36,820 nucleotides of DNA from Rhodospirillales bacterium (GCA_028869595.1 JAGWRU010000119.1:1-36820); one strand, 5' to 3'. Positions 3,426-35,509 are shown, counted from the stretch's first letter. Numbers and translations are program-made. The notes: generated by a model not told the origin, from the letters alone.

Positions 3426-4622
3426 ATGGACCTCAATTTCACGCCCGAGGAGCTGGCCTTCCGCGACGAGGCGCGGCATTTTTTCCGCACCGCCATTCCC
3501 GAAGCCCTGCGTGCCAAGGTGCGCGAGGGGCGTAGCCTTACTAAGGAGGAGATCGTCGCCTCTCAGCGCATTCTCAATGCGCGCGGCTGGGCGACGCCGA
3601 ATTGGCCACGCGCCTGGGGCGGGCAGGATTGGTCGCCGGTGCAGGTCTATCTCTATCAGGACGAGATGCAGCGCGCCTTCGTGCCGCCGACGATCAGCTT
3701 CAACACCACCATGGTCGGCCCGGTGATCGCCGAATTCGGCTCCGACGCGCAGAAGACCCGCTTTCTGCCGCGCGCCGCCAATGCCGATGATTTCTGGTGC
3801 CAGGGGTTTTCCGAACCGGGTTCGGGCTCCGACCTCGCCAGCCTGCGCACGCGCGCGGAACGGCGCGGCGATACTTATGTGGTGAACGGGCAGAAAATCT
3901 GGACCACACTCGCCCAGTATGCCGACTGGATCTTCTGCCTGGTGCGCACCAATCCGACGGCCAAGAAGCAGGAGGGGATTTCCTTCCTGCTGATCGATAT
4001 GAAAACCCCCGGCATCACCGTGCGCCCCATCGTCACCATCGATGGCGGGCGCGAAGTCAACGAAGTGTTCTTCGACGAGGTGGTGGTACCCGCCGAAAAT
4101 CTCGTCGGCCAGGAAAACAAGGGCTGGGATTACGCGAAATTCCTGCTCGGCAATGAACGCACCGGCATCGCCAGGGTGGGCATGTCGAAGGCCCGCATCG
4201 CCCGCATCCGCGCGCTGGCCGCGCAGGAAATCGTCGGCGACCGCCCGCTGATCGAGGATCGGCGCTTTCGCGAAAAACTCGCCGCGGTGGAGATCGAGCT
4301 GAAGGCGCTGGAAATGACGCAGCTCCGCGTGGTGGCCGAGGAACGCAACCGGGTGCGCGGCAAGCCTAACCCGGCCTCCTCCATCCTCAAGCTGAAAGGC
4401 TCCTGGATTCAGCAGCAGATCACCGAATTGCTGCTGGAGGTTGCCGGCCCCTACGCGATCCCCGCCCAGGGCAACGAGGATGGCAGCAACGAACCCGCCA
4501 TCGGCCCCGATTTCGCGGCGATGGCAGCCCCCGGCTATTTCAATTTCCGCAAGGTCTCGATCTACGGCGGCTCCAACGAGATTCAGCGCAACATCATCGC
4601 CAAAGCGATTCTGGGTCTGTGA
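3426..4622 (+). CDS. Acyl-CoA dehydrogenase, first of a pair
   Basis: FAD-dependent acyl-CoA dehydrogenase of 398 residues, oxidising an acyl-CoA thioester to the 2,3-enoyl-CoA and passing electrons to ETF. The N-terminal helical domain (FTPEELAFRDEARHFF), the middle FAD/substrate strand segment (WCQGFSEPGSGSDLASLRTRAERRGDTYVVNGQKIWTT) and the C-terminal helical domain with YGGSNEIQRNIIAKAILGL are all present. The ATG is preceded by GGGGGA. It is followed after 7 bases by a second, shorter acyl-CoA dehydrogenase. Such pairs can form heteromeric enzymes (for example the FadE pairs of steroid side-chain degradation), but this cannot be shown here. The substrate is unknown. Confidence 0.93.
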   Translation: MDLNFTPEELAFRDEARHFFRTAIPEALRAKVREGRSLTKEEIVASQRILNARGWATPNWPRAWGGQDWSPVQVYLYQDEMQRAFVPPTISFNTTMVGPVIAEFGSDAQKTRFLPRAANADDFWCQGFSEPGSGSDLASLRTRAERRGDTYVVNGQKIWTTLAQYADWIFCLVRTNPTAKKQEGISFLLIDMKTPGITVRPIVTIDGGREVNEVFFDEVVVPAENLVGQENKGWDYAKFLLGNERTGIARVGMSKARIARIRALAAQEIVGDRPLIEDRRFREKLAAVEIELKALEMTQLRVVAEERNRVRGKPNPASSILKLKGSWIQQQITELLLEVAGPYAIPAQGNEDGSNEPAIGPDFAAMAAPGYFNFRKVSIYGGSNEIQRNIIAKAILGL

Positions 4623-4629
4623 GGCAGCT

Positions 4630-5784
4630 ATGGATTTCGATCTGACCGACGAACAGCGCCTGCTGAAAGACAGCGTGGAACGCATGGTCGCCGACCGCTA
4701 CGGTTTCGAGCAGCGGCGCGCCTATCTGGCTCTGCCGGGCGGGCGCGATCCGGCGCTATGGGCGCAATGCGCCGAACTCGGCCTGCTCGGCCTGCCGCTG
4801 GCGGAGGAATATGGCGGCTTCGGCGGCGGGCCGGTGGAAACCATGCTGGTGATGGAAGCCTTCGGGCGCGGCCTGGTGCTGGAACCCTATCTGCCCAGCG
4901 TCATTCTGGGCGGCGGGCTGGTCGCCGCGGCCGGCGATGCGGCGCAGAAACGGGCGATCCTGCCGGCGCTGGCCGCAGGGCGGATGCAGCTGGCTTTCGC
5001 CCATCTGGAACGCCGCTCGCGCTATGATCTCGCTGATATCACCACCATTGCGCGCGCCGACGGCGCCGGCTTCGTGCTGGATGGCGCCAAGGGCGTCGTG
5101 CTGGGCGGCGATACGGCCGATACGCTGATCGTTTCGGCGCGCATCGGCGGGGCGCGCTGCGATGCCGATGGGATCGGGCTGTTCCTGGTGGCCGCCGATG
5201 CGCCCGGGCTGACGCGGCGCGGCTATGCGACGCAGGACGGGTTGCGTGCGGCGGAACTCACCCTGGCCGGCACCCCGGCCACCGCGCTGGGGGCACCGGG
5301 CGGCGCGCTGGGCGTAATGCGGCGCATCGTCGATCGCGCGATGGCCGCCCTATGCGCCGAAGCGGTCGGCGTGATGGCGGCGATGCACGAGACGACGCTG
5401 GAGTATCTGAAAACCCGCAAGCAGTTCGGCCGCGCCATCGGCGAATTCCAAGCCTTGCAGCACCGCGCGGTGGATATGCTGGTGGCGCTGGAACAGGCGC
5501 GCAGCATGGCGCTGTTCGCCACCGTAATGGCCGAAAGCGATGATCCGGCGGAACGCGGGCGCGCCATGGCGGCGGCCAAGGCGCAGATCGGGCGCAGCGG
5601 CCGCCATATCGGCCAGGAGGCGATCCAGCTGCATGGCGGCATCGGCATGACGATGGAATACAAGGTCGGCCATTACTTCAAGCGCATGACCATGATCGAT
5701 CAGTGCTTCGGTGATGCCGACACCCATCTCGCGCAGCTGGCCGATGCCGGCAGCCTGTTCGAAGCGGCGGAGGCGACCGGCTAA
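4630..5784 (+). CDS. Acyl-CoA dehydrogenase, second of a pair
   Basis: Second acyl-CoA dehydrogenase, 384 residues, beginning MDFDLTDEQRLLKDSVERMVADRYGFEQRRAY. The start at 4630 is chosen because the family N-terminal helix begins there, 7 bases after the stop of the upstream paralogue. The region upstream in the same frame is a shadow of that gene. The C-terminal flavin-binding part is present (EYLKTRKQFGRAIGEFQALQHRAVDM and AIQLHGGIGMTMEYKVGHYFKR). The middle domain is less conserved than in its partner: where the partner has WCQGFSEPGSGSD this one has LAFAHLERRSRYDL, so a non-equivalent role in a heteromer is plausible. It ends with a 4-base overlap with the convergent GntR regulator. Confidence 0.93.
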   Translation: MDFDLTDEQRLLKDSVERMVADRYGFEQRRAYLALPGGRDPALWAQCAELGLLGLPLAEEYGGFGGGPVETMLVMEAFGRGLVLEPYLPSVILGGGLVAAAGDAAQKRAILPALAAGRMQLAFAHLERRSRYDLADITTIARADGAGFVLDGAKGVVLGGDTADTLIVSARIGGARCDADGIGLFLVAADAPGLTRRGYATQDGLRAAELTLAGTPATALGAPGGALGVMRRIVDRAMAALCAEAVGVMAAMHETTLEYLKTRKQFGRAIGEFQALQHRAVDMLVALEQARSMALFATVMAESDDPAERGRAMAAAKAQIGRSGRHIGQEAIQLHGGIGMTMEYKVGHYFKRMTMIDQCFGDADTHLAQLADAGSLFEAAEATG

Positions 5785-6425
5785 TCCACGCGCGCCTTGG
5801 AGCCTGCGAACAGATAGGCCATCAGCGCCTGCGCCTTGGCCGAGGCGGCATCGGCGTCGCCGTCGATGATCGCCTCGCATACCGCGACATGGCCGTCCGC
5901 GGCTTCCACCAGCCCGTCCGTGCCGTGGTACTGGAACCAGAACCGGCGCGAATGGATCTGCAGCGGCGCCAGGATGCGCGGCAGAAAAGGATTGGCGGCG
6001 GCATTGCTGATCGCCTCGTCCAGCGCCTTGTCCTGGCGCAGATAGAGGCGCACATCGCCACGCTTGGCCGCCACGCGCATATCGTGCATGCAGCGGCCGA
6101 TCACCTCGCGGTCATTGGGGCCGGCGAATCGCGCGGCGGAACGCGCCAGCAGCGGCTCCAGCGTCAGGCGCGGCTCGATCGCGCGGGGATAATCCTCGGG
6201 ACGGATATCGGCGATCTTCACGCCCAGCCGCGGATGCACCTCGGTCAGGCCTTCCAGGGTAAGGCGCTGGATCGCTTCGCGCACCGGGGTGCGGCCGAAG
6301 CCGACCGAGGCGATGATGAATTTCTCGGTCAGCATGCTGCCCGGCACGAATTCCAGCGTGACGATCCGATCCTCGATCGCCAGATAGGCTTCGTGCAGCA
6401 AGGATTTGGCCGTCGGCTTTTTCAT
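5781..6425 (-). CDS. GntR-family regulator with FCD ligand-binding domain
   Basis: Transcription factor, probably a repressor released by a small carboxylate or amino-acid effector. Residues 1-70 form the GntR winged helix (LHEAYLAIEDRIVTLEFVPGSML, then GRTPVREAIQRLTLEGL) and the rest is an all-helical FCD domain. In the FCD metal site the usual D-x3-H reads DKALDEAI, so one His ligand position is Asp. A later His (DGHVAV) is kept. I use ATG 6425 (214 residues). The track start 6467 lies only 8 bases from the palindrome and would leave almost no leader if the -10 lies inside it. The gene is divergent from the ABC importer/hydroxyproline genes and is the most likely regulator of them. Effector and regulon are inferred from position. 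Confidence 0.85.
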   Translation of the reverse strand: MKKPTAKSLLHEAYLAIEDRIVTLEFVPGSMLTEKFIIASVGFGRTPVREAIQRLTLEGLTEVHPRLGVKIADIRPEDYPRAIEPRLTLEPLLARSAARFAGPNDREVIGRCMHDMRVAAKRGDVRLYLRQDKALDEAISNAAANPFLPRILAPLQIHSRRFWFQYHGTDGLVEAADGHVAVCEAIIDGDADAASAKAQALMAYLFAGSKARVD

Positions 6426-6475
6426 CGGTCCATGCAATGCGGGGCCGAAGCTGGGCGCCGCGGCCATGTCTGGAT

Positions 6476-6487
6476 TTGATATATCAA
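6476..6487. promoter_or_regulatory. Palindromic operator candidate 1 (TTGATATATCAA)
   Basis: A perfect 12-base palindrome, TTGATATATCAA, sits just upstream of the GntR/FCD gene. A second copy of its core lies 86 bases away, centre to centre, in the same divergent intergenic region. GntR/FCD proteins bind short A/T-centred palindromes. On the minus strand the palindrome contains TATATC, usable as a -10 for the regulator gene, which fits autorepression. The AT-rich composition stands out in this GC-rich window. Confidence 0.6.
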
Positions 6488-6561
6488 TCCGTCCGACGAT
6501 GCCAGAACTCGGTGAATTCGCGTCTATATCTGGAAATATGCGTCGCGCCGGCCCGGCATCA

Positions 6562-6573
6562 TTGATATATCAG
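6562..6573. promoter_or_regulatory. Palindromic operator candidate 2 (TTGATATATCAG)
   Basis: This copy repeats operator candidate 1 with one base changed (TTGATATATCAG) and keeps the 10-base perfect core TGATATATCA. It lies 8 bases upstream of the -35 of the candidate promoter for the ABC importer. The two sites flank the divergent region and could be bridged or bound separately by the FCD regulator. Confidence 0.6.
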
Positions 6574-6580
6574 AAATAGC

Positions 6581-6609
6581 TTGCGGCCTTGATCGGTGCT
6601 CGCTAATTT
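6581..6609 (+). promoter_or_regulatory. Candidate sigma-70 promoter for the ABC importer operon
   Basis: TTGCGG at 6581-6586, a 17-base spacer and TAATTT at 6604-6609 match the sigma-70 consensus reasonably well. Transcription would begin near 6616 and leave a leader of about 110 bases before the binding-protein ATG. The match is by eye, and no other comparable promoter was seen in the gap. Confidence 0.45.
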
Positions 6610-6725
6610 TTGTGCCGGCATCTCCGGCGGGCGATTTCCCCCGGATGCGACGCTGGGAACGCAGGCGATCGCCGGGCCGGGCAGCGATGTCCGTCCGTGC
6701 GGAAAACCGGACAGGAGGGACACGC

Positions 6726-7838
6726 ATGAAGCATTTCACCAGAGTGCTGGCAGCCGGTGCGCTGCTGGCAATGGCCGGCGGCGCGAGCGCGCAAGCCCAG
6801 GGCACGCTGAAAGTCGGCGTCGAAGTGCCGACGACCGGGTCGGAAGCGACCTATGGCCAGGATATGTACAACGCCGCCGCCATCGCCCGTGACGAGATCA
6901 ACGCCCATGGCGGCGTGCTGGGCAAGAAGATCCAGCTGATCGTCGGCGACGATGCCTGCGATCCGCAGCAGGCGGTGAATGCGGCCTCGAAGCTGGTGTC
7001 GCAGAAAGTGGTCGCGGTGGTTGGCGGCTATTGCTCCGGCGCCACCGTGCCGGTGCTGAAGATCTATGGCGATGCGCATATCCCCTTCGTGATCACGGCG
7101 GCCAATTCCACCGCGTTGATCCCGGCCAATCCCGGCAATGCCTTCCTGATCAACTCGACCGGCGATCAGCAGGCGATCACCGCCGTGAAGTTCTTCCAGC
7201 ACAAGAAGATCAAGACCCTCGCCATCGTCAATGAAGGCGATGCCTATTCGCAGAACCTCGCTGATCTGATGCGCACCGCCTGGCAGAAGGCGGGCGGCAA
7301 GGTCGTCGATTTCGAGACGGTGAACAAGGGCGAGCAGGACTACTCCTCGGTCGTTACCGCCATCGATGCCAAGCATCCCGATGCGGTGTTCTGGACCGCC
7401 TATTACGCCGATGGCGGCCTGCTGATCCGCCAGCTTCGCCAGTCCGGCTATCAGGGCATGATTGCGGTTGGCGACGGCTCGAACTCGGTCAAGCTGTTCG
7501 ATATCGCGGGCAAGGCGGCCGAAGGGGTCTACGCCTTCTCCAACCCGATCGCGCAATTCCTGCCGGCGGCGAAATCCTTCATCGCCACCTACAAGAAGGA
7601 ATACAAGGCCGAACCCGGCCCCTATGCGCCGCTGACCTATGACGGCATGCAGCTTCTCGTCTGGGCGATGAAGAAGGCCGGCACGACCAATGCGGCTGCG
7701 GTGGAAAAGGCGCTTGCCTCCGCCAATGGCGTGCATTGGCTGACCGGGCCGATCGCCTTCACCAAGAAGAATACGCTGGCCCGTTCGAACTTCGTGGTTC
7801 TCGAAGGCAAGAACGGCGCCTGGATCGCCGCGAAGTAA
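6726..7838 (+). CDS. Branched-chain-amino-acid-type ABC transporter substrate-binding protein
   Basis: Periplasmic binding protein of the HAAT/LivJ class (371 residues). The start at 6726 is supported by AGGAGGGA 6 bases upstream and by a Sec signal peptide, MKHFTRVLAAGALLAMAGGASAQAQG, with cleavage probably after ASAQA. The longer track ORF would bury the signal peptide. The mature part begins GTLKVGVEVPTTGSEATYGQDMYNAAAIARDEINAHGGVLGKKIQLIVGDD, the typical first lobe of type I periplasmic binding proteins. It opens an operon with livH, livM, livG and livF and then hydroxyproline-type enzymes, so its ligand may be a hydroxyproline isomer or related imino acid rather than leucine. The ligand is inferred from context. 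Confidence 0.93.
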   Translation: MKHFTRVLAAGALLAMAGGASAQAQGTLKVGVEVPTTGSEATYGQDMYNAAAIARDEINAHGGVLGKKIQLIVGDDACDPQQAVNAASKLVSQKVVAVVGGYCSGATVPVLKIYGDAHIPFVITAANSTALIPANPGNAFLINSTGDQQAITAVKFFQHKKIKTLAIVNEGDAYSQNLADLMRTAWQKAGGKVVDFETVNKGEQDYSSVVTAIDAKHPDAVFWTAYYADGGLLIRQLRQSGYQGMIAVGDGSNSVKLFDIAGKAAEGVYAFSNPIAQFLPAAKSFIATYKKEYKAEPGPYAPLTYDGMQLLVWAMKKAGTTNAAAVEKALASANGVHWLTGPIAFTKKNTLARSNFVVLEGKNGAWIAAK

Positions 7839-7856
7839 TCGCAGCCTCCGGATAAG

Positions 7857-7889
7857 GGTGGGCCGGCGCATGCCGTCGGCCCGCCTTTT
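7857..7889 (+). terminator. Terminator-like hairpin between binding protein and permease genes
   Basis: GGTGGGCCG (7857-7865) pairs with CGGCCCGCC (7877-7885), one pair being G-U, around an 11-base loop. TTTT follows immediately. It sits between the binding-protein stop and the livH start. Partial termination or 3' end protection here would raise the level of the binding protein over the membrane parts, a common arrangement for ABC importers. Confidence 0.6.
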
Positions 7890-7918
7890 CCTTGCATGAT
7901 CCAGGGAAGGATGCGGGT

Positions 7919-8833
7919 GTGAGCCTGTCCGTCATCATCGCCCACCAGCTTGTCAACGGCCTGGTGCTGGGCTCCTTCTATGCCCTGGTGGCGCTGGGCT
8001 ACACGATGATTTTCGGCGTCATCAAGCTGCTGAACTTTGCCCATGGCGATCTGTATATGGTCGGCGGCTTCGTCGGTTTTCTGGCGTTGTCGGCCATTTC
8101 CGGCGTGGTGGGCAGCGGCTGGGGCGGCATTTTCCTGGCCATGCTGCTGTCGATGATCGGGGTTGGCTGCCTCGGCGTGCTGATCGAGCGCATCGCCTAT
8201 CACCCGATGCTGCACGCCCCGCGTTTGTCGATCCTGATCACCGCCCTGGCCGTTTCTCTGGTGCTGCAGAATGCGGTGCTGGCGCTGACTGGCGGGCAAT
8301 ACACGGCCTTCCATACCGATCTGGGTTTCGGCGGCATCCATCTCGGGCCGATCTTCATCTCCTATAACCAGATGGTGCTGGTGGCGACCGCCGCCGGGCT
8401 GATGGTGGCGCTGGAATTCTTTGTTACCCACACGCAATATGGTCGGGCGATGCGGGCCGTGGCGATCGACCACGATATGTGCCGCCTGATGGGCATCGAT
8501 GTTTCCGCCATCATCGGCGTGACCTTCTTCGTCGGCACCGCGCTGGCCGCGGCGGCCGGCACTATGGCCGGGGCCTATTACGGCTCGCTGTGGTATTTCA
8601 TGGGCTTCCTGATCGGCCTGAAAGCCTTCACCGCGGCGGTGATCGGCGGCATCGGCTCGATCCCCGGGGCGATGCTGGGCGGGCTGATTCTGGGATTGCT
8701 CGAATCCTTCGGCACCCAGATCCCCGGCATCGGTAGTGCCTGGAAGGACGTCTTTGCGTTCGCCGTGCTGATCCTGGTGCTGGTGCTGAAACCCACCGGT
8801 CTGCTGGGCAAGTCCGAGCAGGAGCGGATGTGA
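7919..8833 (+). CDS. livH: ABC transporter permease, LivH family
   Basis: Inner-membrane permease of a HAAT-class importer, 304 residues with about eight hydrophobic segments. The family opening VIIAHQLVNGLVLGSFYALVALGYTMIFGVIKLLNFAHGDLYMVGGF is textbook LivH. I choose GTG 7919 because AGGGAAGG lies 8 bases upstream and the N-terminus then fits the family. The track uses TTG 7892 and adds nine residues. The C-terminal GLLESFGTQIPGIGSAWKDVFAFAVLILVLVLKPTGLLG is intact. The stop TGA shares its A with the ATG of livM, so the two are translationally coupled. Confidence 0.93.
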   Translation: MSLSVIIAHQLVNGLVLGSFYALVALGYTMIFGVIKLLNFAHGDLYMVGGFVGFLALSAISGVVGSGWGGIFLAMLLSMIGVGCLGVLIERIAYHPMLHAPRLSILITALAVSLVLQNAVLALTGGQYTAFHTDLGFGGIHLGPIFISYNQMVLVATAAGLMVALEFFVTHTQYGRAMRAVAIDHDMCRLMGIDVSAIIGVTFFVGTALAAAAGTMAGAYYGSLWYFMGFLIGLKAFTAAVIGGIGSIPGAMLGGLILGLLESFGTQIPGIGSAWKDVFAFAVLILVLVLKPTGLLGKSEQERM

Positions 8834-9810
8834 TGGCGGGCCGCAACATCCAGGCCGCGCGCCTGCTGGGACCGCTTGCGGCGGTTGCGGAAAATCCCCG
8901 CCTGCGCGGCCCGGCGCTGGGCATTCTGCTGGCCGTCCTGCTGATCGCCCCGCCGGCACTGGGTAGCTATGCCACCGTCATTCTGACCAATGCGTTCCTG
9001 TATGTGGTGCTGGCACTCGGGCTGAACATCGTGGTCGGCTATGCCGGGCTGCTCGATCTCGGCTATGCCGCCTTCTTCGCGGTCGGCGCCTATACGGTCG
9101 GCATTCTGACCGAACGGTTCGGGGTGAATTTCTGGGTCACCCTGCCGATCGCGCTGGCGGTTGCCGGGCTCGCGGGCGTGATCATCGGCGGGCCGACCTT
9201 GCGCCTGCGCTCGGATTACCTTGCCATCGTCACGCTGGGCTTTGGCGAGATCGTACGCATTAGTGCCCGCAACATGAAGATCACCGGCAGCGCCAGCGGC
9301 CTGACCGGGATCGAGCAGCCCTGGCTGTTCGGCTGGCATATCGCAACGCCGCGCGATTTCTACTACGTGTTTCTGCTTCTCGCCGTGCTGGCGGTGTTCA
9401 TCTCCGTCCGCCTCGCCGGCTCTCGGCTGGGCCGGGCATGGCTCTATGTCCGCTACGACGAGGATGCGGCGGAGGCGATGGGTATCGATCGGGTGCGGGT
9501 GAAGCTTGCCGCCTATATCATCGGGGCGATGTTCGGCGCGACGGCGGGGGCGTTCTTTGCCGTCAATCTCGGCGCCATCTCGCCGGAAAGTTTCTCCTTC
9601 AACCAGTCCGTGCTGATCCTGATGGCGGTGGTGCTGGGCGGCATGGGCAAGATCCCTGGCGTGATCCTGGGCGCCTTCGTCGTCATCATCGGCCCCGAAT
9701 TGCTGCGCGCGGCGGGCGATCTGCGCCTGCTGATCTTCGCCATCTTCCTGCTGCTGATCATGCTGTTCCGCCCGAGCGGCATCTGGCCGGGCCGGAGGGC
9801 GGGACGATGA
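8833..9810 (+). CDS. livM: ABC transporter permease, LivM family
   Basis: Second permease subunit (325 residues), forming the translocation channel with LivH. Family motifs visible are LGLNIVVGYAGLLDLGYAAFFAVGAYTVGIL, then RLRSDYLAIVTLGFGEIVRI and the coupling-region EAMGIDRVRVKLAAYIIGAMFGATAGAFFA. It ends in RPSGIWPGRRAGR. The ATG at 8833 overlaps the livH stop by one base. A GTG at 8830 is the track's alternative. The livG start overlaps its stop by ATGA. Nothing is missing for a functional permease. Confidence 0.93.
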   Translation: MAGRNIQAARLLGPLAAVAENPRLRGPALGILLAVLLIAPPALGSYATVILTNAFLYVVLALGLNIVVGYAGLLDLGYAAFFAVGAYTVGILTERFGVNFWVTLPIALAVAGLAGVIIGGPTLRLRSDYLAIVTLGFGEIVRISARNMKITGSASGLTGIEQPWLFGWHIATPRDFYYVFLLLAVLAVFISVRLAGSRLGRAWLYVRYDEDAAEAMGIDRVRVKLAAYIIGAMFGATAGAFFAVNLGAISPESFSFNQSVLILMAVVLGGMGKIPGVILGAFVVIIGPELLRAAGDLRLLIFAIFLLLIMLFRPSGIWPGRRAGR

Positions 9811-10601
9811 GCGAAAACCTGCTGCAATTGCGCGGCATCGGCCTTGCGTTCGCCGGGCACACGGTACTGCAGAATGTCGATTTCCATGTCGCGCCGAAAG
9901 CGATCGTCAGCCTGATCGGGCCGAACGGGGCGGGAAAAACCTCGCTGTTCAACTGCATCACCGGCTTCTACCGCCCCCAGCGCGGCAGCATCGTGCTGGA
10001 CGGGGCGGCGATGCATGCCTTGAAGCCGCATGCGGTGACTGCGGCCGGCATTGCCCGCACGTTTCAGAACCTGCGTTTGTTCCGGGAAATGACGGTGCTG
10101 GAAAATGTCATGTCCGGCATGCATTGCCGCACCCGGTCCGGCGCGATCGGCGCCATTCTGGGCCTTCCCTCGCAACGCGCCGAGGAGCGGGAGATTGCGG
10201 CACGCGCCGAGGAATGTCTCCGCTTCGTTGGTCTGGAGGAGGCGCTTTGGCAGCGCGACGCCACGACGCTGGCCTATGGCCATCAGCGGCGGCTGGAAAT
10301 CGCCCGCGCGCTGGCCACCCGCCCCAAGCTGCTGCTGCTGGACGAACCCGCGGCCGGCCTCAATGCCGGAGAAAAGCAGGATCTGATCGTTCTGATCCGG
10401 CGCATCCGCGACGAAGCCGGGATCGGTGTTCTGCTGATCGAGCATGATACCGGACTGGTGATGCAGATTTCCGAACGGATCAGCGTGCTCGACCACGGCG
10501 TCATGATCGCCGAGGGCAGTGTGGCCGAGATTCAGAGCAATCCCCGGGTGATCGAGGCCTATCTCGGGCAGGATGACGGGGAGGCGGACTTTGACCTCTG
10601 A
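9807..10601 (+). CDS. livG: ABC transporter ATP-binding protein, LivG family
   Basis: Cytoplasmic ATPase subunit (264 residues) of the same importer. Walker A is GPNGAGKTS, the signature region is YGHQRRLEIARALATRPKLLLLDEPAAGLN (Walker B included), and the H-loop is in LLIEHDTGLVMQI. The LivG-type insert after Walker A (ITGFYRPQRGSIVLDGA, then GIARTFQNLRLFREMTVLENVMSGMHCRTRS) is present. The start ATG 9807 overlaps the livM stop by four bases, and the upstream part of the track ORF is a shadow of livM. The signature reads YGHQRR where LivG proteins usually have YGxQRRLEIARAL, so it is normal for the family. Confidence 0.93.
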   Translation: MSENLLQLRGIGLAFAGHTVLQNVDFHVAPKAIVSLIGPNGAGKTSLFNCITGFYRPQRGSIVLDGAAMHALKPHAVTAAGIARTFQNLRLFREMTVLENVMSGMHCRTRSGAIGAILGLPSQRAEEREIAARAEECLRFVGLEEALWQRDATTLAYGHQRRLEIARALATRPKLLLLDEPAAGLNAGEKQDLIVLIRRIRDEAGIGVLLIEHDTGLVMQISERISVLDHGVMIAEGSVAEIQSNPRVIEAYLGQDDGEADFDL

Positions 10602-11331
10602 TCCGGCGCGCGATGATGTGGTGCTGAAACTGACCGGGGTGGCGGCCGGCTATGGTCGTATCCAGGCGCTCGGCGGCATCGACCTGGAAGTGCGGCGCGG
10701 CCAGATCGTCACCCTGCTGGGCGCCAATGGCGCGGGCAAGACGACGACGCTGAAAACCATTTCCGGTCTGGTGCGCGCGACCGCCGGCACGATCGTCCTG
10801 GAAGGGCGCGACATCGCGACGATGAAGCCGCACGAGATCGCGCGGCTCGGCGTGGTGCATGTGCCGGAGGGGCGGCGCATCCTGCGTGGATTGACGGTGC
10901 GGGAAAATCTCGAAGTTGCCGCTTTTGCGGTGCGCGACGGTGCGCTGCGCCGCTCCCGGCTGGAACAGGTTTTTGCCCAGTTCCCCATTCTGCATGCCCG
11001 CCAGGGCCAGGATGGCTCGCTTCTTTCGGGCGGGGAGCAACAGATGCTGGCCATCGGTCGTGCCTTGATGCAGGGACCGAAATTGCTGCTGCTGGACGAA
11101 CCGTCAATGGGGCTGGCGCCGAAGCTGGTGCTGGAGACGATGAAGATCGTCAAACGCCTTAATCGCGACGAAGGCACCACGATTCTGCTGGTAGAGCAGA
11201 ATGCGCGCCTTGCGCTGCGCCTGGCTGATTACGGCTATGTGCTGGAAGGCGGCATGATCCGCATGCGGAATGCGGCCGCGCAGCTACGCGAAGATCGCTC
11301 GATCGTGCAGGCCTATCTGGGCGGCGGCTGA
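10591..11331 (+). CDS. livF: ABC transporter ATP-binding protein, LivF family
   Basis: Second ATPase subunit (246 residues from this start). Walker A is GANGAGKTT, the signature LLSGGEQQMLAIGRALMQGPKLLLLDEPSMGL, followed by the H-loop ILLVEQNARLAL. LivF differs from LivG by the short Walker A-signature distance and the QNARLAL ending, both seen here. I prefer TTG 10591 because GGGGAGG lies about five bases upstream. ATG 10573 (track) has a weaker ribosome site and adds six residues. The gene overlaps the end of livG, and its own stop overlaps the ATG of the next gene (TGATG), so transport and catabolic genes are coupled. Confidence 0.92.
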   Translation: MTSDPARDDVVLKLTGVAAGYGRIQALGGIDLEVRRGQIVTLLGANGAGKTTTLKTISGLVRATAGTIVLEGRDIATMKPHEIARLGVVHVPEGRRILRGLTVRENLEVAAFAVRDGALRRSRLEQVFAQFPILHARQGQDGSLLSGGEQQMLAIGRALMQGPKLLLLDEPSMGLAPKLVLETMKIVKRLNRDEGTTILLVEQNARLALRLADYGYVLEGGMIRMRNAAAQLREDRSIVQAYLGGG

Positions 11332-12611
11332 TGACGGTGCAGCCGGGCAGGGCAGCGGGCGATCCCGCGCTGGCCAGCGCCGATGTCGCGGTGATCGGCG
11401 CCGGCATCATTGGCCTGGCCTGTGCGCAGAAATTGCAGCAGGCCGGCCGCTCGGTGGCGCTGCTCGATCCCGCCGGCATGGCCAACCGCACCAGCGCGGG
11501 CAATGCCGCAGCCTTCGCCTTTTCCGATATTCTGCCGCTGGCCGGACGCGGCCTGATCTTCAAGGTACCGGGCTGGCTGCTCGACCCGCTCGGTCCGTTA
11601 TCGATCCGCCCGGCCTACCTGCCGCGCCTGCTGCCATGGTTCTGGCGCTTCCTGCGTGCCGGTCAGGCCGGGCGCATTGCCGGTGCCATCGCCGCGCAGG
11701 CCGCACTGATGCGCCTGTCGGAGGGTGAAATGGCGGCGCTGGTCGAAGCCTGCGGGCTGGCCGCGATGGTGCGCCATGACGGTTCGCTGGAGCTGTACGA
11801 GAGCGAGGCGGAACTGACCGCATCCGAGGAAGGCTGGCGCCATCGCCGCGCCGCGGGCATCGGGTTTGAGCATGTGCGCGGCGCCAGGCTGGCGGAATTG
11901 CAGCCCGGCCTGGCGCCCCGCTTTGTGGCAGGTACTTTCGTGCCGTCCTGGCAGACCGTGTCGGAACCGCAGCATTTCGCCTGTGCCATCGGCGAGCATG
12001 TGCTGGCCCAAGGCGGTACGCTGCGTATGGCGGAGGTGGTGGGCATCGCCCCGGCCGAGCACGGCGTCACGCTGCGTCTGCGGGATGGGCAAATACTGCA
12101 AGCGCGCCAGGCGGTGTTGGCGGCCGGGGCCTGGTCGAAGCATCTTGCCGCCCAGCTTGGCGATCGCATCCCCCTCGATACCGAGCGGGGTTATAATACC
12201 ACCTTGCCGGCCGATGCATTTCCGCTGCGCCGGCAATTGATCTTCGGCGCGCATGGCTTCGTCATCACCCCGCTAGCCACCGGCATCCGGGTCGGCGGCG
12301 CGGTGGAACTCGCGGGCCTCGACCATCCGCCGAATTTCGCCCGGGCGCGGGCGATGCTCGCCAAGGCCAAGCGGTTTCTGCCCGATCTTGCCACCGATGG
12401 CGGGCGCGAATGGATGGGCCATCGTCCGTCCCTGCCGGACAGCCTGCCGGTGATCGGCGCCTCACGCGCCAGCCCGCATATCGTGCATGCGTTCGGACAT
12501 GGCCATCTCGGCCTGACGCAATCGGCCGCAACCGGGCGCCTGGTTGCCGATCTGCTCTGCGCGCGCCGCAGCGCGTTCGATCTTTCCCCTTTCAGTCCGC
12601 AAAGGTTCTAG
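11331..12611 (+). CDS. FAD-dependent D-amino-acid-type oxidoreductase (candidate D-hydroxyproline dehydrogenase)
   Basis: DAO/DadA-fold flavoprotein of 426 residues. Near the N-terminus ADVAVIGAGIIGLACAQKLQQAGRSVALLD is the dinucleotide-binding GxGxxG. HDGSLELYESEAEL and the C-terminal GREWMGHRPSLPDSLPVIGASRASPHIVHAFGHGHLGLTQSAATGRLVADLL are typical of DadA and of the single-subunit hydroxyproline oxidases. It is translationally coupled to livF and followed after 6 bases by a 4-hydroxyproline epimerase. In known pathways the epimerase product cis-4-hydroxy-D-proline is oxidised by exactly this kind of enzyme to pyrroline-4-hydroxy-2-carboxylate. The substrate assignment is inference from this neighbourhood, and other D-amino acids are possible. 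Confidence 0.85.
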   Translation: MTVQPGRAAGDPALASADVAVIGAGIIGLACAQKLQQAGRSVALLDPAGMANRTSAGNAAAFAFSDILPLAGRGLIFKVPGWLLDPLGPLSIRPAYLPRLLPWFWRFLRAGQAGRIAGAIAAQAALMRLSEGEMAALVEACGLAAMVRHDGSLELYESEAELTASEEGWRHRRAAGIGFEHVRGARLAELQPGLAPRFVAGTFVPSWQTVSEPQHFACAIGEHVLAQGGTLRMAEVVGIAPAEHGVTLRLRDGQILQARQAVLAAGAWSKHLAAQLGDRIPLDTERGYNTTLPADAFPLRRQLIFGAHGFVITPLATGIRVGGAVELAGLDHPPNFARARAMLAKAKRFLPDLATDGGREWMGHRPSLPDSLPVIGASRASPHIVHAFGHGHLGLTQSAATGRLVADLLCARRSAFDLSPFSPQRF

Positions 12612-12617
12612 ACGGCG

Positions 12618-13619
12618 ATGGCACGCTTCACCTTCTCCTGCATCGACGGGCATACATGCGGCAATCCGGTGCGCCTGGTAACCGGCGGTGCGCCGCTGCT
12701 GCACGGCAAGACCATGCTGGAGCGGCGTGCGCATTTCCTGGCAGAATTCGACTGGATCCGTACCGGGCTGATGTTCGAGCCGCGCGGCCACGACATGATG
12801 TCCGGCTCCATCCTGTTCCCGCCGACGCGGGAGGATTGCGATATCGGCATCCTGTTCATTGAAACTTCCGGCTGCCTGTATATGTGCGGCCACGGCACGA
12901 TCGGTACCGTAACGATGGCGATCGAAAACGGCCTGATCCGCCCGAAAACCCCGGGCATCGTGCGCCTCGATACGCCGGCCGGGCTGGTAGTGGCGGAATA
13001 TCGCCAGGAAGGCCCCTTCGTGACGGAGGTGCGGATCACCAACGTGCCCTCCTATCGGCATGCGACGGGGCTGGAGGCGACGATCGAGCCTTTGGGGCGG
13101 CTGCGCTTCGATGTCGCCTATGGCGGGAATTTCTACGCCATCATCGACCCGCAGGAGCATTTCCACGATATCGCCGATGTCACCGCCGCCGATCTGATCC
13201 GCTGGAGTCCGCTGCTGCGCAGCGCGATCAACGATGCCTACAGTTTCGTGCATCCGGAAAATCCGGCGATCAATCGCCTGACCCATATTCTCTGGACCGG
13301 CAAGCCGACCCGGGCGGGTGCCACGGCGCGCAATGCCGTGTTCTATGGCGACAAGGCGATCGACCGCTCGCCCTGCGGCACCGGCACGTCGGCGCGGATG
13401 GCGCAATGGGCGGCACAGGGCAAGCTTTCGGTCGGCGATGAATTCATCCACGAGAGCATCATCGGCTCGTTGTTCAAAGGCCGGGTGGAGAAGGCGGTAC
13501 GCATTGGCGAGTACGAGGCCATCGTGCCTTCCATCGGCGGCTGGGCGTGCCAGACCGGCATCAACACGATCTTCATCGACGACCGCGATCCGTTTGCGCG
13601 CGGATTTTCGGTGATCTGA
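12618..13619 (+). CDS. lhpA: 4-hydroxyproline 2-epimerase (proline racemase family, Cys/Cys type)
   Basis: Proline-racemase-fold enzyme of 333 residues. Both catalytic cysteines are present: Cys90 in [13 protein letters not shown] and Cys253 in [14 protein letters not shown]. Two cysteines mean racemase/epimerase chemistry rather than dehydration, and the CGHGTIG form together with the neighbourhood favours trans-4-hydroxy-L-proline to cis-4-hydroxy-D-proline over proline racemisation. The opening [23 protein letters not shown] is typical of this subgroup. It lies between the candidate D-hydroxyproline dehydrogenase and two 3-hydroxyproline dehydratase-like genes. Proline or 3-hydroxyproline epimerase activity remains possible. 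Confidence 0.88.
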
Positions 13620-13638
13620 GACAGGCGGGAACAGGGCA

Positions 13639-14742
13639 ATGAAAATCACCGGCATCAAGGCCTGGCAGATCGATCTGCCGCTGCGCGAAGGCCGCTATAA
13701 CTGGTCGAACGGCAATTTCGTGGAAGTGTTCGACAGCACCGTGGTCGCCGTCGAAACCGATGGCGGGATCACCGGCTATGCCGAATGCTGCCCGCTGGGC
13801 TCGGCCTATCTGCCCTCCTACGCCAAGGGCGTGCGCGCCGGGCTGCAGGAAATCGGCGCGAAGCTGATCGGCCTGGATCCCACCAATCTCGGTGCCGTCA
13901 ATCGCGCCATGGACGCTGCCTTGCGCGGGCATCCCTATGTGAAGGCACCGATCGATATCGCCTGCTGGGACATCCTTGGCAAAGTGGCGGGGCTGCCGCT
14001 GTATCAGCTTCTCGGCGGCAAGGCGCAGGACAAGCTGGCGCTGTACCGCGCGATCTCCCAGGAGGCGCCGGAGGCGATGGCTGCCAAGATCAAGGGATAT
14101 CGGGCGGAGGGCTACGGCAAATTCCAGCTCAAGGTCGGCGGTGATGCCGATGAGGATATCGCCCGCATCCGGGCCTGCCGCGCCGCTCTGGCCGATCGCG
14201 ATATTCTGGTCGCTGATGCCAATACCGGCTGGACCCGGGCGGAGGCAGCGCGCGTGGTGGCGGCGACCGGCGATCTCGACGTCTATTTCGAGCAGCCCTG
14301 CCCGACCTATGAGGAATGCGTCTCCGTCCGCCGCCGCACGGCGCGGCCCTTCGTGCTGGATGAGGTGATCACCGACCCCGCCATGCTGATGCGCGGCCTG
14401 GCCGAGGATGCGATGGATCTGATCAATCTCAAGATCTCCAAAGTCGGCGGGCTGACCAAGGCGAAGCTGATGCGCGACATCGCGGTCGGTAGCGGCACGC
14501 CGATGATCATCGAGGATACCTGGGGCGGCGATATCGTCACTGCGGCGATCGCCCATCTGGCGCTGTCCACGCCGGCGGAATTCTGTTTCGCGGCGACCGA
14601 CTTCAACAGCTACGGCACGCGCGACATCGCCGATGGCGCGCCGCGCCGGGTCGATGGCTGTATGACCGCCTCCGACGCGCCGGGGCTCGGCATCACGCCG
14701 CGGATCGCCGAATTCGGCGCACCGGCCGTGGCGATCGGCTAG
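13639..14742 (+). CDS. lhpI: Enolase-superfamily (MLE subgroup) enzyme, candidate cis-3-hydroxy-L-proline dehydratase
   Basis: Mandelate racemase/muconate-lactonising-type enzyme of 367 residues. The capping domain is [23 protein letters not shown]. The barrel carries a Lys165 base (FQLKVGG), metal ligands Asp193 (VADANTGW), Glu218 (YFEQPCPT) and Asp241 (VLDEVITD), and a second Lys265 (LKISKVGG). The Lys pair and spacing match proline-betaine epimerase HpbD and cis-3-hydroxy-L-proline dehydratase LhpI. The next gene matches LhpH, which is adjacent to LhpI in Roseibium (Labrenzia) aggregatum, so the dehydratase assignment is favoured. The product would be delta-1-pyrroline-2-carboxylate. Epimerase activity on a hydroxyproline betaine is the alternative. 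Confidence 0.8.
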
Positions 14743-14753
14743 GGGCGGCGGCG

Positions 14754-15788
14754 ATGCGCAGCACAAGGGCGATCCAGATCGTCGGTTGCCATGCCGAGGG
14801 CGAGGTCGGCGATGTCATCATCGGCGGTGTTGCGCCGCCGCCGGGGGAGACGCTGTGGGAGCAGTCCCGCTTCATCGCAGCCGATGAGACACTCCGTCGC
14901 TTCGTCCTGAACGAGCCGCGCGGCGGTGTGTTCCGCCACGTCAATCTGCTGGTACCGCCGAAGGATCCGCGCGCGGCGATGGGCTTCATCATCATGGAGC
15001 CGTCGGACACGCCGCCAATGTCGGGTTCCAACTCCATCTGCGTCGCGACCGTGCTGCTCGATACCGGCATCGTGGCGATGCGGGAGCCGGAGACGACGCT
15101 GATCCTGGAAGCGCCGGGTGGGCTGGTGGAGGTGACGGCCCTGTGCCGCAACGGCAAGGCCGAACGCATCACGGTGCGCAACGTGCCGAGCTTCGCCGAT
15201 CGGCTGGACGCGCCCCTCGAAATTCCCGGGCTGGGTACCATCCGCGTCGATACCGCCTATGGCGGCGACAGCTTCGTGATTGCCGATGCAGCCGCGCTGG
15301 GCTTTGCCCTGGTGGCGGAGGAGGCGCGCGACCTGGCCGAGATGGGTGTGCGCATTACCCAGGCCGCCAATGAACAGCTCGGCTTTCGCCATCCGGTCAA
15401 TGGCGGATGGGACCATATTTCCTTCTGCCAGATCGCCGAACCGCTACAGCGCGAGGCCGATGGCTGGAGCGGACGGAATGCCGTGGTCATCCGCCCCGGC
15501 AAGATCGATCGCTGCCCCACGGGCACCGGATGTTCGGCCCGCATGGCGGTGCTGCACGCGCGCGGCGCCCTGGCCATCGGCGAGCGCTACCGCGCGATTT
15601 CCCTGCTCGGTTCGGAATTTCACTGCCGCATTGCCGAGGCGACGACGCTCGCCGGGCGGGCGGCGATCGTGCCGGAGATTTCCGGCCGCGCCTGGATCAC
15701 CGGCACGCGGACGGAAATGCTCGATCCCGACGATCCCTGGCCGGAAGGGTATCGGCTGTCGGATACCTGGCCGCATCTGCTGGCCTGA
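14754..15788 (+). CDS. lhpH: trans-3-hydroxy-L-proline dehydratase (proline racemase family, Ser/Thr type)
   Basis: Proline-racemase-fold enzyme of 344 residues, but with the two catalytic cysteine positions changed: Ser90 ([19 protein letters not shown]) and Thr256 ([14 protein letters not shown]). Loss of the second cysteine is the known mark of trans-3-hydroxy-L-proline dehydratases (Thr in the human L3HYPDH), and Ser at the first position matches, from memory, the Roseibium aggregatum enzyme LhpH, which this protein resembles over its whole length. The reaction is dehydration to delta-1-pyrroline-2-carboxylate. That product needs a reductase to become proline, and no such gene is in this window. 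It ends seven bases from the convergent inositol phosphatase gene, inside a small hairpin. Confidence 0.88.
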
Positions 15789-15801
15789 CGCAGGGTCAGG
15801 C
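15783..15801. terminator. Small palindrome spanning two convergent stop codons
   Basis: GCCTGAC (15783-15789) and GTCAGGC (15795-15801) form a perfect 7-bp stem with a 5-base loop. The left arm contains the TGA of the lhpH-like gene and the right arm contains the TGA of the opposite-strand inositol phosphatase. It may act as a weak bidirectional end structure. No T-tract follows, so termination is not certain. Confidence 0.4.
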
Positions 15802-16569
15802 GCAGGCGCGGACATCGGCATAAAGGCGGTCGTAGATTTCCGGCGTTGCCGCGACCAGCCGGTTGCCCTGCGTCAATCCGTTGTCGGCGAGGAAATCGTT
15901 GCAGCGCCCGCCGGCTTCCTCGACCAGCAGAATTCCGGCCAGCGCATCCCAGGCATTGATGTGCAATTCGGCATAGCCGTCATTCAGCCCGCAGGCGACT
16001 TCGGCCAGCCCCAGCGCGCCGGAGCCGTGGCGACGGAATTCGATCTCCGCCGCCGTCAGGCGATGCAGCAGGTCGCAATAGGCCGAAAGCGGCCGGCGCG
16101 CCGACCAGCCGAGTTCCACGATCGGCGCTGCCCCATGGCCGAGATGGCTGACGCCGATCGGCCGCCCGTTCAGGAAGGCGCCACCGCCGCGCCGGGCGGT
16201 GAACAGACGATCGTCGCGCGGCGCATAGATCGCGCCGCATTCGACGATGCCTGCGCGCATCACCGCGATGGAAACGCACCAGCGCGTCGTGCCATGGATA
16301 TAGCCGGCGGTGCCGTCGATCGGATCGACCACCCAGACGTGATCGGTATCGGCGCTGCCGCCGCCTTCCTCGCCGATCATCGCATCGGCGAAGGTGGCGG
16401 TGACGCGCGTGCGGATGTGACTTTCGACGGCCAGATCGGCTGCCGTGCAGAAATCGATGGCCGTCTTCGCGGTGATGCGACCGAGATCGGCGTACATGCG
16501 CGCGGCCAGCGCGCCGCCTTCGCGGGCCAGCGCGACAGCCAGGGCGAATCGAGGATCGCTATCGGTCAT
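15796..16569 (-). CDS. Inositol-monophosphatase-family phosphatase
   Basis: Mg2+-dependent phosphatase of the IMPase/FBPase fold, 257 residues. Metal ligands appear in order: GEEGGG (Glu), VVDPIDGTAGYIHG (Asp, Asp) and the C-terminal INAWDALAGILLVEEAGG (Asp). This is the complete family set. It is divergent from iolD with a 139-base shared gap, so its likely role is to free myo-inositol from inositol phosphate ahead of the IolG/IolE/IolD steps. Members of the family also act on histidinol phosphate, PAP or fructose bisphosphate, and the sequence alone cannot exclude these. The opposite end is convergent with the hydroxyproline operon. Confidence 0.88.
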   Translation of the reverse strand: MTDSDPRFALAVALAREGGALAARMYADLGRITAKTAIDFCTAADLAVESHIRTRVTATFADAMIGEEGGGSADTDHVWVVDPIDGTAGYIHGTTRWCVSIAVMRAGIVECGAIYAPRDDRLFTARRGGGAFLNGRPIGVSHLGHGAAPIVELGWSARRPLSAYCDLLHRLTAAEIEFRRHGSGALGLAEVACGLNDGYAELHINAWDALAGILLVEEAGGRCNDFLADNGLTQGNRLVAATPEIYDRLYADVRACA

Positions 16570-16708: not shown

Positions 16709-18547
16709 ATGACCACCATCCGACTGACCGCCGCCCAGGCGCTGGTGCGCGCGATGGCCGCCCAGCGCACCGTGCTGGACGGCAAGGAAGTGCCGATCTT
16801 TGCCGGTGTCTGGGCGATTTTCGGCCACGGCAACGTCGCCGGCATGGGCGAGGCGCTGCATGGCGTGCGCGACGTGCTGCCGACATGGCGCGCCCATAAC
16901 GAGCAGGCGATGGCGCATGCCGCGATCGCCTATGCCAAGACGCTGGCGCGGCGGCGCATGATGGCCTGCACCACCTCGATCGGTCCGGGGGCGACCAATC
17001 TGGTCACCGCCGCCGCCGTCGCGCATGTCAATCGCCTGCCGCTGCTGCTGATCCCGGGCGATGTCTTCGCCTCCCGCCGGCCCGATCCGGTGTTGCAGCA
17101 GATCGAGGATTTCGCCGACGCCACGGTCAGTGCCAATGACTGCCTGCGTCCCGTCTCCCGCTGGTTCGACCGGATCACCCGGCCCGAGCAGATCATCCCC
17201 GCCTTTGCCCGCGCCATGGCGGTGCTGACCGATCCCGCCGTCTGCGGGCCGGTGACGCTCGCTTTCTGCCAGGATGTGCAGACCGAGGCGTATGACTATC
17301 CCGACCATTTCTTCGCCCCGCGCCTGTGGACGCCGCGCCGGCCGCAGCCGGATAGGACGGAACTGGCCGATGCGGCGGCGGCGCTGCGCCAGGCCGCACG
17401 GCCTTTCGTGGTGGTCGGCGGCGGCGTGCGCTATGCCGAGGCGGAGCGGGAAGTGGCCGATTTCTGCGCTGCCCGAAACCTGCCGATGGGGGAAACCCAG
17501 GCGGGCAAATCCGCCGTGCCGGAGGATGCGCCGCTTCATCTCGGTGCGCTCGGCGTGACCGGCACGGCGGCTGCGAATGCGCTGGCCGGGGAGGCCGATC
17601 TGGTACTGGCGATCGGCACGCGGCTGGCCGATTTCACCACCGCCTCGCGCAGCCTGTTCGGCGGTGCGCGGCTGATCGCGCTCAATGTGCAAAGCTTCGA
17701 TGCCGCCAAGCACGGCGCCTTGCCGCTGGTTGCCGATGCCCGCGCGGGCATCGCCGCATTGGATCAGGCGCTCGGCGACTGGCGGGCACCGCAGGCCTGG
17801 GCGGCGCAGGCGCAGCAGGAAAAGCGGCAATGGCGCGAAGCAGCGGCGCAGTACACGGCGCCCGGCGATGGCGCCTTGCCCGCCGATGCGCAGGTGATCG
17901 GCGCGGTGCAGCGCCAGGCCCGGCCATCGGATATCGTGGTCTGTGCCGCAGGCGGTCTGCCCGGGGAATTGCACAAGCATTGGCAGGCCGCGCAATCGGG
18001 CGGGTATCATCTGGAATACGGCTATTCCTGCATGGGCTACGAGATCGCCGGCGGCCTGGGCGTGAAACTCGCCGCGCCGGCGCGCGAGGTTTTCGTGCTG
18101 GTCGGCGACGGTTCCTACCTGATGATGAATTCGGAAATCGCGACTTCGGTGATGCTCGGCCTCAAGCTGGTGATCGTGGTGCTGGATAATCGCGGCTTCG
18201 GCTGCATCGACCGGTTGCAGCGCGCCACCGGCGGGGCGGGGTTCAATAATCTGCTGGCCGATGCCGCGCATGTCGTGCTGCCGGCGATCGATTTTGCCGC
18301 CCATGCCGCAAGCCTGGGGGCGACGGCCGAGCATGTGAACGCCATTGCCGCGCTGGATGCGGCACTGGTTCGCGCCCGGGCGGCACGCGGCACCTATGTC
18401 GTGACGATCGATACCGATCCGCGCGTCGCAACCGATGCCGGCGGGTATTGGTGGGATGTCGCGGTGCCGGAAATCTCGACGCGGCCGGGCATGGAAGCGG
18501 TGCGCACCCGGTACGAGGCGGCAAGGCGCGATCAGGCGATCGGCTAA
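16709..18547 (+). CDS. iolD: 3D-(3,5/4)-trihydroxycyclohexane-1,2-dione hydrolase
   Basis: ThDP-dependent ring-opening hydrolase of myo-inositol catabolism, 612 residues, normal for IolD. The N-terminal IRLTAAQALVRAMAAQ with GVWAIFGHGNVAGMGEAL and the cofactor-activating Glu in WRAHNEQAMAHAAIAYAK are family features. The C-terminal ThDP/Mg site is VGDGSYLMMNSEIATSVMLGLKLVIVVLDNRGFGCIDRLQ. It converts the diketone made by IolE into 5-deoxyglucuronate. It leads a run with iolE (26 bases downstream) and iolG. The later genes iolB, iolC, iolJ and iolA are not in the window, so the pathway must be completed elsewhere. Confidence 0.94.
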   Translation: MTTIRLTAAQALVRAMAAQRTVLDGKEVPIFAGVWAIFGHGNVAGMGEALHGVRDVLPTWRAHNEQAMAHAAIAYAKTLARRRMMACTTSIGPGATNLVTAAAVAHVNRLPLLLIPGDVFASRRPDPVLQQIEDFADATVSANDCLRPVSRWFDRITRPEQIIPAFARAMAVLTDPAVCGPVTLAFCQDVQTEAYDYPDHFFAPRLWTPRRPQPDRTELADAAAALRQAARPFVVVGGGVRYAEAEREVADFCAARNLPMGETQAGKSAVPEDAPLHLGALGVTGTAAANALAGEADLVLAIGTRLADFTTASRSLFGGARLIALNVQSFDAAKHGALPLVADARAGIAALDQALGDWRAPQAWAAQAQQEKRQWREAAAQYTAPGDGALPADAQVIGAVQRQARPSDIVVCAAGGLPGELHKHWQAAQSGGYHLEYGYSCMGYEIAGGLGVKLAAPAREVFVLVGDGSYLMMNSEIATSVMLGLKLVIVVLDNRGFGCIDRLQRATGGAGFNNLLADAAHVVLPAIDFAAHAASLGATAEHVNAIAALDAALVRARAARGTYVVTIDTDPRVATDAGGYWWDVAVPEISTRPGMEAVRTRYEAARRDQAIG

Positions 18548-23893: not shown

Positions 23894-24142
23894 CTAGGCG
23901 CCGGTGAAGGCGTTGAAGGTGATCATCGTATAGGTTTCGCGCACGCCGGGCAGCGTCTGCACCTTCTCGGTCACGAAACGCCCGGTATCCTGATCGGATT
24001 CGAGGTAGAATTTACCAAGCAGGTCATATTGCCCGGAGATCGAGAACATCTCCGACAATTCGGCGATGGTATCGGCCGCCTCCTGCGCGACACGGTAGGC
24101 GGTGCCCATCTCGCAGCGTATCATCACGAAGATCGCCCGCAT
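23894..24142 (-). CDS. Stand-alone Lrp/AsnC effector (RAM) domain protein
   Basis: A small protein of 82 residues that is a single Lrp/AsnC ligand-binding domain without the helix-turn-helix. It reads MRAIFVMIRCEMGTAYRVAQEAADTIAELSEMFSISGQYDLLGKFYLESDQDTGRFVTEKVQTLPGVRETYTMITFNAF, the beta-alpha-beta-beta-alpha-beta pattern with the DLLGKFY and LPGVRETYTMI strands. Such proteins oligomerise and may bind amino acids or modulate full-length Lrp proteins. It is divergent from an acetolactate-synthase-like gene, so a link to branched-chain or 2-oxoacid metabolism is possible but unproven. Confidence 0.88.
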   Translation of the reverse strand: MRAIFVMIRCEMGTAYRVAQEAADTIAELSEMFSISGQYDLLGKFYLESDQDTGRFVTEKVQTLPGVRETYTMITFNAFTGA

Positions 24143-24356
24143 CCGCGCCTCCTGTCTGTCCTGCCCCTATGCCATGGCCGGCACTGGCGGGGCAATCGCG
24201 CCGGATCATCGCGCCGGAATGGGGCCGGTGCCCGCCGATCTTGGCAGAATGCGGCGCGCGTGGTTCCTTCGCCGCGTATCGGGCGCCGCCGGTCGGGCCG
24301 ATCGGCAGCGGCCGGGCAGGGAGTGCCCTATCGGGATCGGCTGGACATTGGGGGAT

Positions 24357-34346: not shown

Positions 34347-34348
34347 GG

Positions 34349-35448: not shown

Positions 35449-35473
35449 GCGGCGATCCGATAACGGAGTAGAT

Positions 35474-35489
35474 GTCTAGACAGCTAGAC
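35474..35489. promoter_or_regulatory. PhnF operator candidate GTCTAG-N4-CTAGAC
   Basis: A perfect inverted repeat GTCTAG-ACAG-CTAGAC. A second, 10-base perfect palindrome TGTCTAGACA (35473-35482) overlaps it. It lies between divergent phnG and phnF, 26 bases upstream of the phnG start. HutC/UTRA-subfamily GntR proteins, including PhnF, bind short palindromes of the form (T)GTxTAxAC(A). The site overlaps the predicted -10 of the phn operon promoter, consistent with repression. Confidence 0.7.
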
Positions 35490-35509
35490 CTATCCCGGTT
35501 TATCGTCAA
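35481..35509 (-). promoter_or_regulatory. Candidate promoter of the phnGHIJKLM operon
   Basis: On the minus strand TTGACG (35504-35509) is followed after 17 bases by TAGCTG (35481-35486), an acceptable -35 and a fair -10. The -10 lies inside the inverted repeat. On the plus strand TAGACA (35477-35482) with TATCGT 18 bases later could serve phnF. Both are by-eye matches. Confidence 0.4.

Follow-up and report, generated by a model that had tools for sequence, protein, structure and literature searches.

The window analysed here, the whole of a 36,820-nucleotide contig (C71) from a Rhodospirillales bacterium, carries a run of genes that we read as an operon for the uptake and catabolism of hydroxyproline isomers, with its own ABC importer of the HAAT type and an FCD switch. 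We give this overall explanation a probability of roughly 0.8, and within it we infer the ligand of the importer, the substrate of the FAD enzyme, repression, and flux. The importer tracks hydroxyproline genes in other genomes, which upholds a first-pass annotation of the region as a hydroxyproline-isomer catabolic operon with a HAAT importer of its own. Hydroxyproline is a constituent of both collagen and the plant cell wall. Annotation normally presents HAAT binding proteins as receptors for branched-chain amino acids. A HAAT clade tightly linked to hydroxyproline genes supplies a substrate that can be tested in this large family, whose assignments are poor, and would correct the annotation in several alphaproteobacterial genera.

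Gene organization and genomic setting

The assembly comprises 3.44 Mb in 256 contigs and is 86.7% complete. Positions 6726 to 15788 on the plus strand encode, in order, a binding protein, two permeases, two ATPases, an FAD enzyme, an epimerase, an enolase-superfamily protein, and a proline-racemase-superfamily dehydratase, and a GntR/FCD regulator diverges from this run. The features are as follows.

5781 to 6467, minus strand: GntR/FCD transcriptional regulator (Pfam FCD 73 bits, GntR 50 bits)
6476 to 6487, FCD/importer intergenic region: putative FCD operator 1, the perfect 12-bp palindrome TTGATATATCAA
6562 to 6573, 86 bp from operator 1: putative FCD operator 2, TTGATATATCAG, with one mismatch
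6726 to 7838, plus strand: HAAT periplasmic binding protein (Peripla_BP_6, Pfam 217 bits), proposed hydroxyproline receptor
7919 to 8833, plus strand: LivH-like permease (BPD_transp_2, 139 bits)
8830 to 9810, plus strand: LivM-like permease (BPD_transp_2, 156 bits)
9807 to 10601, plus strand: LivG-like ATPase (ABC_tran 117 bits, plus BCA_ABC_TP_C; ATGA start)
10573 to 11331, plus strand: LivF-like ATPase (ABC_tran, 112 bits)
11331 to 12611, plus strand: DadA-like FAD oxidoreductase (Pfam DAO, 197 bits), proposed cis-4-hydroxy-D-proline dehydrogenase/oxidase
12618 to 13619, plus strand: 4-hydroxyproline 2-epimerase (NF010578, 581 bits against a cut-off of 376; Cys90/Cys253)
13639 to 14742, plus strand: enolase-type cis-3-hydroxyproline dehydratase, LhpJ type (NF043002, 706 bits against a cut-off of 500)
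14754 to 15788, plus strand: trans-3-hydroxyproline dehydratase, LhpG (NF047722, 627 bits against a cut-off of 550; Ser90/Thr256)

The first-pass annotation had named these genes, and Pfam and NCBIfam recovered every one of them at its coordinates; all lie on the plus strand except the FCD regulator, which diverges from them. It had also described them as coupled through ATGA junctions. The coupling is real, but the junctions are mixed: ATGA occurs only between LivM and LivG, while LivH and LivM meet in GTGA, LivG and LivF overlap by 29 bases, LivF and the FAD enzyme overlap in TGATG, and the enzyme genes are spaced by 6 to 19 bases. The binding protein and LivH are separated by 80 bases, counted to a likely GTG start at 7919, a choice that is partly inferred, the LivH-like frame being open from a TTG at 7892. 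The regulator may likewise have an internal start, near 6425 (MKKPTAKS).

Just past the regulator lie two adjacent acyl-CoA dehydrogenase genes (3426 to 5784, plus strand). A heavy-metal P-type ATPase with an HMA domain is encoded at 650 to 2791 on the minus strand. A gene read from its sequence as inositol-monophosphatase-like (15796 to 16569, minus strand) converges on the operon end. Two thiamine-diphosphate enzymes (16709 to 18547, and 24102 to 26135 on the plus strand), a DctP-type TRAP binding protein (22779 to 23786, minus strand), and PhnH, PhnI, and PhnJ of the C-P lyase phosphonate pathway (32413 to 36007, minus strand) are also present; the PhnH frame is 552 residues long, and about 365 extra residues precede its PhnH domain.

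The HAAT importer and its receptor

By Pfam, the importer has the five subunits of the HAAT family (3.A.1.4): one Peripla_BP_6 receptor, two BPD_transp_2 permeases, and two ABC ATPases. None of the five proteins passes the NCBIfam cut-offs for Liv proteins of the E. coli type. The binding protein scores 209 bits against LivJ/K, where the cut-off is 477, and the scores and cut-offs for LivH, LivM, LivG, and LivF are 222/379, 275/366, 296/362, and 238/441 bits, respectively.

An AlphaFold model of the receptor, built with 18 aligned sequences, has a mean pLDDT of 86.6. By fold it lies closest to receptors for leucine, LIV, and alanine/GABA, including the GABA receptor Atu2422, and its best PDB sequence matches are likewise leucine/LIV and Atu2422 receptors; since the nearest receptors bind different amino acids, the fold search cannot give the ligand. 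Alignment with LivK places what we take to be the ligand-contact positions of that protein at Y43, S104, A125, N127, Y174, Y226, D250, and Y300. Seven of these are invariant in 19 of 19 binding-protein sequences, and A125 varies. All 19 sequences carry Asn at the position of LivK Thr102 and Asp at that of Glu226; Atu2422, whose ligands include proline (PMC5924552), also has Asp at the latter position in a sequence alignment. These features are compatible with an amino- or imino-acid ligand, whose identity sequence does not prove. The same genome holds 12 further matches to the binding protein, at 24 to 30% identity, which could serve general amino acids.

Catabolic enzymes

The epimerase and the cis-3 and trans-3 dehydratases each pass curated cut-offs, which places them in their respective families. 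Catalytic residues read from the sequence agree with the assignments of all three. In the LhpJ-type dehydratase, Lys165 and Lys265 are the catalytic residues and Asp193, Glu218, and Asp241 the metal ligands; its best PDB match, 4mgg (614 bits), has the same catalytic motifs. LhpG matches PDB entries 4k8l, 1tm0, and 4k7g, and its Ser90/Thr256 pair is that of the solved trans-3 dehydratase B9K4G4 (PMC4113996). The two dehydratases had initially been called LhpI-like and LhpH-like. The activities so proposed stand, but the names do not, as LhpI is aconitase X and LhpH is pyrroline-2-carboxylate reductase, while the enolase-type cis-3-hydroxyproline dehydratase is LhpJ and the trans-3-hydroxyproline dehydratase is LhpG (PMC5144071). 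An aconitase X (LhpI) identity for the cis-3 enzyme was ruled out, Pfam giving only MR_MLE N and C domains.

The FAD enzyme is assigned by its DAO fold. It scores above no NCBIfam equivalog cut-off, and the DadA subfamily model gives 184 bits against a cut-off of 383. Its homologs, at 42 to 70% identity, occur in most HAAT-hydroxyproline loci, and its substrate would be cis-4-hydroxy-D-proline.

Linkage of importer and hydroxyproline genes across genomes

Linkage was tested in two ways, from the dehydratase (80 loci fetched) and from the binding protein alone (Devosia genomes). Starting from the dehydratase, this HAAT importer was found contiguous with the dehydratase in 10 of the 80 loci, belonging to Devosia species and to one genome each from the Acetobacteraceae, the Rhodospirillales, and the Rhizobiales, the last of them unplaced. 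In these loci the binding protein, where it could be read, is 60 to 75% identical, and the other subunits are about 69 to 84% identical. A PAAT importer was present instead in 32 loci, no locus had both types, and the rest were short contigs or loci with unclassified neighbours. On the dehydratase tree the importer type shifts at least four times, and both types are found inside the Devosiaceae.

When 385 genomes were sampled evenly across the class, no other binding protein emerged at E 1e-90; the protein is therefore rare, and its context was tested in Devosia. A search of 75 genomes of that genus with the binding protein alone gave 10 matches (64 to 70% identity, one copy each). Nine of the 10 have the epimerase (HypE) and LhpG within about 10 kb of the binding protein; at the tenth, the contig stops inside LivF, and a DapA-like gene lies on the binding protein's other side. 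Among 27 dehydratase-bearing genomes, 16 lacked the binding protein (E 1e-60) and the other 11 had one copy each. Genome G404 has a dehydratase locus (L048) without HAAT genes, and its binding protein, on another contig, adjoins genes for DapA-like, FAD-enzyme, epimerase, LhpG, and Ldh_2 proteins. The pairing of this HAAT importer with hydroxyproline genes is not due to chance.

Not all of the enzymes are equally constant companions. Four loci (L117, L118, L119, and L123) have the epimerase and LhpG, with LhpJ absent from the fetched stretch, so the HAAT importer is usually partnered by the epimerase and LhpG; L073 is the exception in having only LhpJ. This partnership suggests that trans-4- and trans-3-hydroxyproline are the core substrates, to which cis-3-hydroxyproline would have been added. 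Dehydratase homologs at 62 to 65% identity also turned up in records of Planctomycetota, Verrucomicrobia, Acidobacteria, and Trueperaceae (L075 to L090). In most of these the neighbourhood shows no recognisable relative of the other hydroxyproline genes, and the role of the homologs may differ there.

Alternative explanations

The importer might be a general system for neutral and hydrophobic amino acids (leucine, alanine, proline, and GABA) that is co-expressed with the hydroxyproline genes and takes hydroxyproline as a minor ligand at most. The leucine/LIV and Atu2422 receptors that are its best PDB matches by sequence and fold agree with this, the fold being a promiscuous one, and so does the behaviour of related HAAT systems: Anabaena N-I has a wide range of amino-acid substrates, among them hydrophobic ones and above all proline (PMC4500139), and Atu2422 helps to take up GABA, proline, alanine, and valine (PMC5924552). 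We nevertheless consider it unlikely. When the search began with the binding protein, hydroxyproline genes lay beside it in all nine readable cases, unrelated PAAT importers replace the HAAT type in other hydroxyproline loci, the 12 other binding-protein matches could cover general amino acids, and the Asn and Asp exchanges relative to LivK are uniform across the 19 sequences.

Two further readings carry much less weight. A chance meeting of two unrelated, adjacent operons, one for the importer and one for the enzymes, is conceivable in a genome where housekeeping HAAT-type binding proteins are common, but the overlap of LivF with the FAD enzyme argues against it, and conservation of the linkage across several families and several dehydratase-tree branches already contradicts it, leaving it a negligible probability. 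It is somewhat less far-fetched, though still highly improbable, that the importer takes a derivative, hydroxyproline betaine or proline betaine, in place of the free amino acid. The enolase-superfamily structures 2pmq and 4h2h, which we take to be hydroxyproline betaine 2-epimerases, do match the dehydratase at 182 bits. However, the enzyme is far closer to cis-3-hydroxyproline dehydratase by both the NF043002 and the 4mgg scores given above, and Pfam and NCBIfam assign no gene of the run to betaine demethylation.

The FCD regulator and its putative operators

The start given for the region by the first-pass annotation, 6476, is the first base of the palindrome TTGATATATCAA. This is the only exact site in the 3.44-Mb assembly, and no site besides TTGATATATCAG comes within one mismatch of it; a reversed-pattern control over the same assembly gave no sites, and shuffles of the window led us to expect 0.17 sites at up to two mismatches. 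Relatives of the regulator occur in L020 (73% identity), L118 (69%), L073 (66%), and L119 (43%). The core GATATATC lies between the FCD gene and the binding protein in L020 and L118, and in L119 it occurs twice upstream of the binding protein, the FCD relative being at the run's other end. L073 has no palindrome site at up to two mismatches, and none was found in loci with a more distant FCD regulator or where no regulator was seen. These patterns support the palindrome pair as a specific operator, with autoregulation by the FCD protein probable.

As a GntR-family protein with an FCD domain beside hyp genes, the regulator has the arrangement of HypR-type regulators, of which HypR of S. coelicolor is an FCD repressor (PMC6608401). 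By analogy with that protein and with HypR of S. meliloti (PMC5343134), the regulator of the window would act as a repressor that responds to an inducer. A dedicated FCD regulator is supported, and the palindrome pair is unique in the assembly, but the proposal that one FCD protein controls the whole system can reach no further than this operon, because candidate deaminase and reductase genes lie on other contigs, in stretches without the palindrome.

Proposed pathway

In the pathway that we propose, the epimerase would convert trans-4-hydroxy-L-proline to cis-4-hydroxy-D-proline, which the FAD enzyme would oxidise to Pyr4H2C, and a deaminase encoded elsewhere would yield alpha-ketoglutarate semialdehyde. 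The two dehydratases would convert trans-3- and cis-3-hydroxy-L-proline to pyrroline-2-carboxylate, and a reductase, also encoded elsewhere, would reduce this to proline. The FCD protein would bind the palindrome pair in the divergent promoter region and probably repress its own gene and the operon until an inducer appears.

The run from 6726 to 15788 contains no deaminase, semialdehyde dehydrogenase, or pyrroline-2-carboxylate reductase gene. Many relatives carry two additional genes, a DapA-like one that separates LivF from the FAD enzyme and an Ldh_2 one that follows LhpG. In this assembly, a candidate deaminase at C218:8659-9597 matches the DapA-like protein of the Maritalea hydroxyproline locus (L037) at 72%, and a candidate reductase at C67:12927-13913 is an Ldh_2 protein 57% identical to the L033 version; the fetched stretches of C218 and C67 that hold them lack the palindrome. 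With this deaminase ortholog and candidate reductase on C218 and C67, the pathway, though split over contigs, could plausibly be completed from genes elsewhere in the genome. Other queries of the 86.7% complete assembly gave less: there is no ortholog of the DapA-like protein from Devosia locus L038 (best match, 33%), the L012 version gave 32% matches only, the aldehyde dehydrogenase of L037 had a best match of 36%, and no OCD-family reductase was found. The DapA-like proteins are themselves divergent among hydroxyproline loci (L038:6798-7700, L120:8128-9000, L037:5209-6183, and L012:6496-7482); those of L038 and L120 are 47% alike, and only the L037 version has a close match in this genome.

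Relationship to known systems

Because the pairing recurs in other bacteria, the HAAT family probably has a hydroxyproline-dedicated branch, one undescribed in searchable papers. A fuller proposition is that receptors dedicated to hydroxyproline form the subfamily marked by Asn at LivK Thr102 and Asp at Glu226, that this subfamily and PAAT importers have replaced each other several times in operons that are otherwise equivalent, and that one branch has its own FCD/GATATATC switch; we consider the odds of this about even.

The first-pass annotation had called the pairing new or little described. Our search of open-licence papers found none linking HAAT or LivJ with hydroxyproline catabolism. 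The hydroxyproline importers known or predicted in PMC5343134 are the ABC system HypMNPQ, the MFS protein HypT, and the TRAP system HypABC, with no HAAT among them, and PMC4113996 mentions several transport types without using the term HAAT. The pairing is nonetheless nearer to known systems than had been implied, because proline import by HAAT systems is already known (PMC4500139, PMC5924552).

Like the Labrenzia aggregata cluster, the operon has an enolase-type LhpJ inside an L-hydroxyproline gene cluster (PMC5144071); compared by description, the importers of the clusters in that paper are only "putative ABC-type," whereas a five-gene HAAT system is present here. The S. meliloti hyp cluster similarly combines a GntR-family regulator (HypR), an epimerase, an FAD enzyme, and a dedicated ABC importer (PMC5343134), but HypMNPQ comprises four genes by name and the HAAT system five, again compared by description. 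Anabaena N-I (PMC4500139) and Atu2422/Bra (PMC5924552) share the HAAT architecture and an imino-acid ligand, the latter presumed here; both are broad amino-acid importers, unlinked to hydroxyproline catabolism in those papers. In Ancylobacter, Maritalea, Shimia, and some Devosia, dehydratase loci with a PAAT importer (L012, L037, L059, and L043) have the same neighbourhood and share catabolic genes, but their importers consist of SBP_bac_3 and BPD_transp_1 proteins, families other than those of HAAT. Two importer types thus trade places in one kind of catabolic operon.
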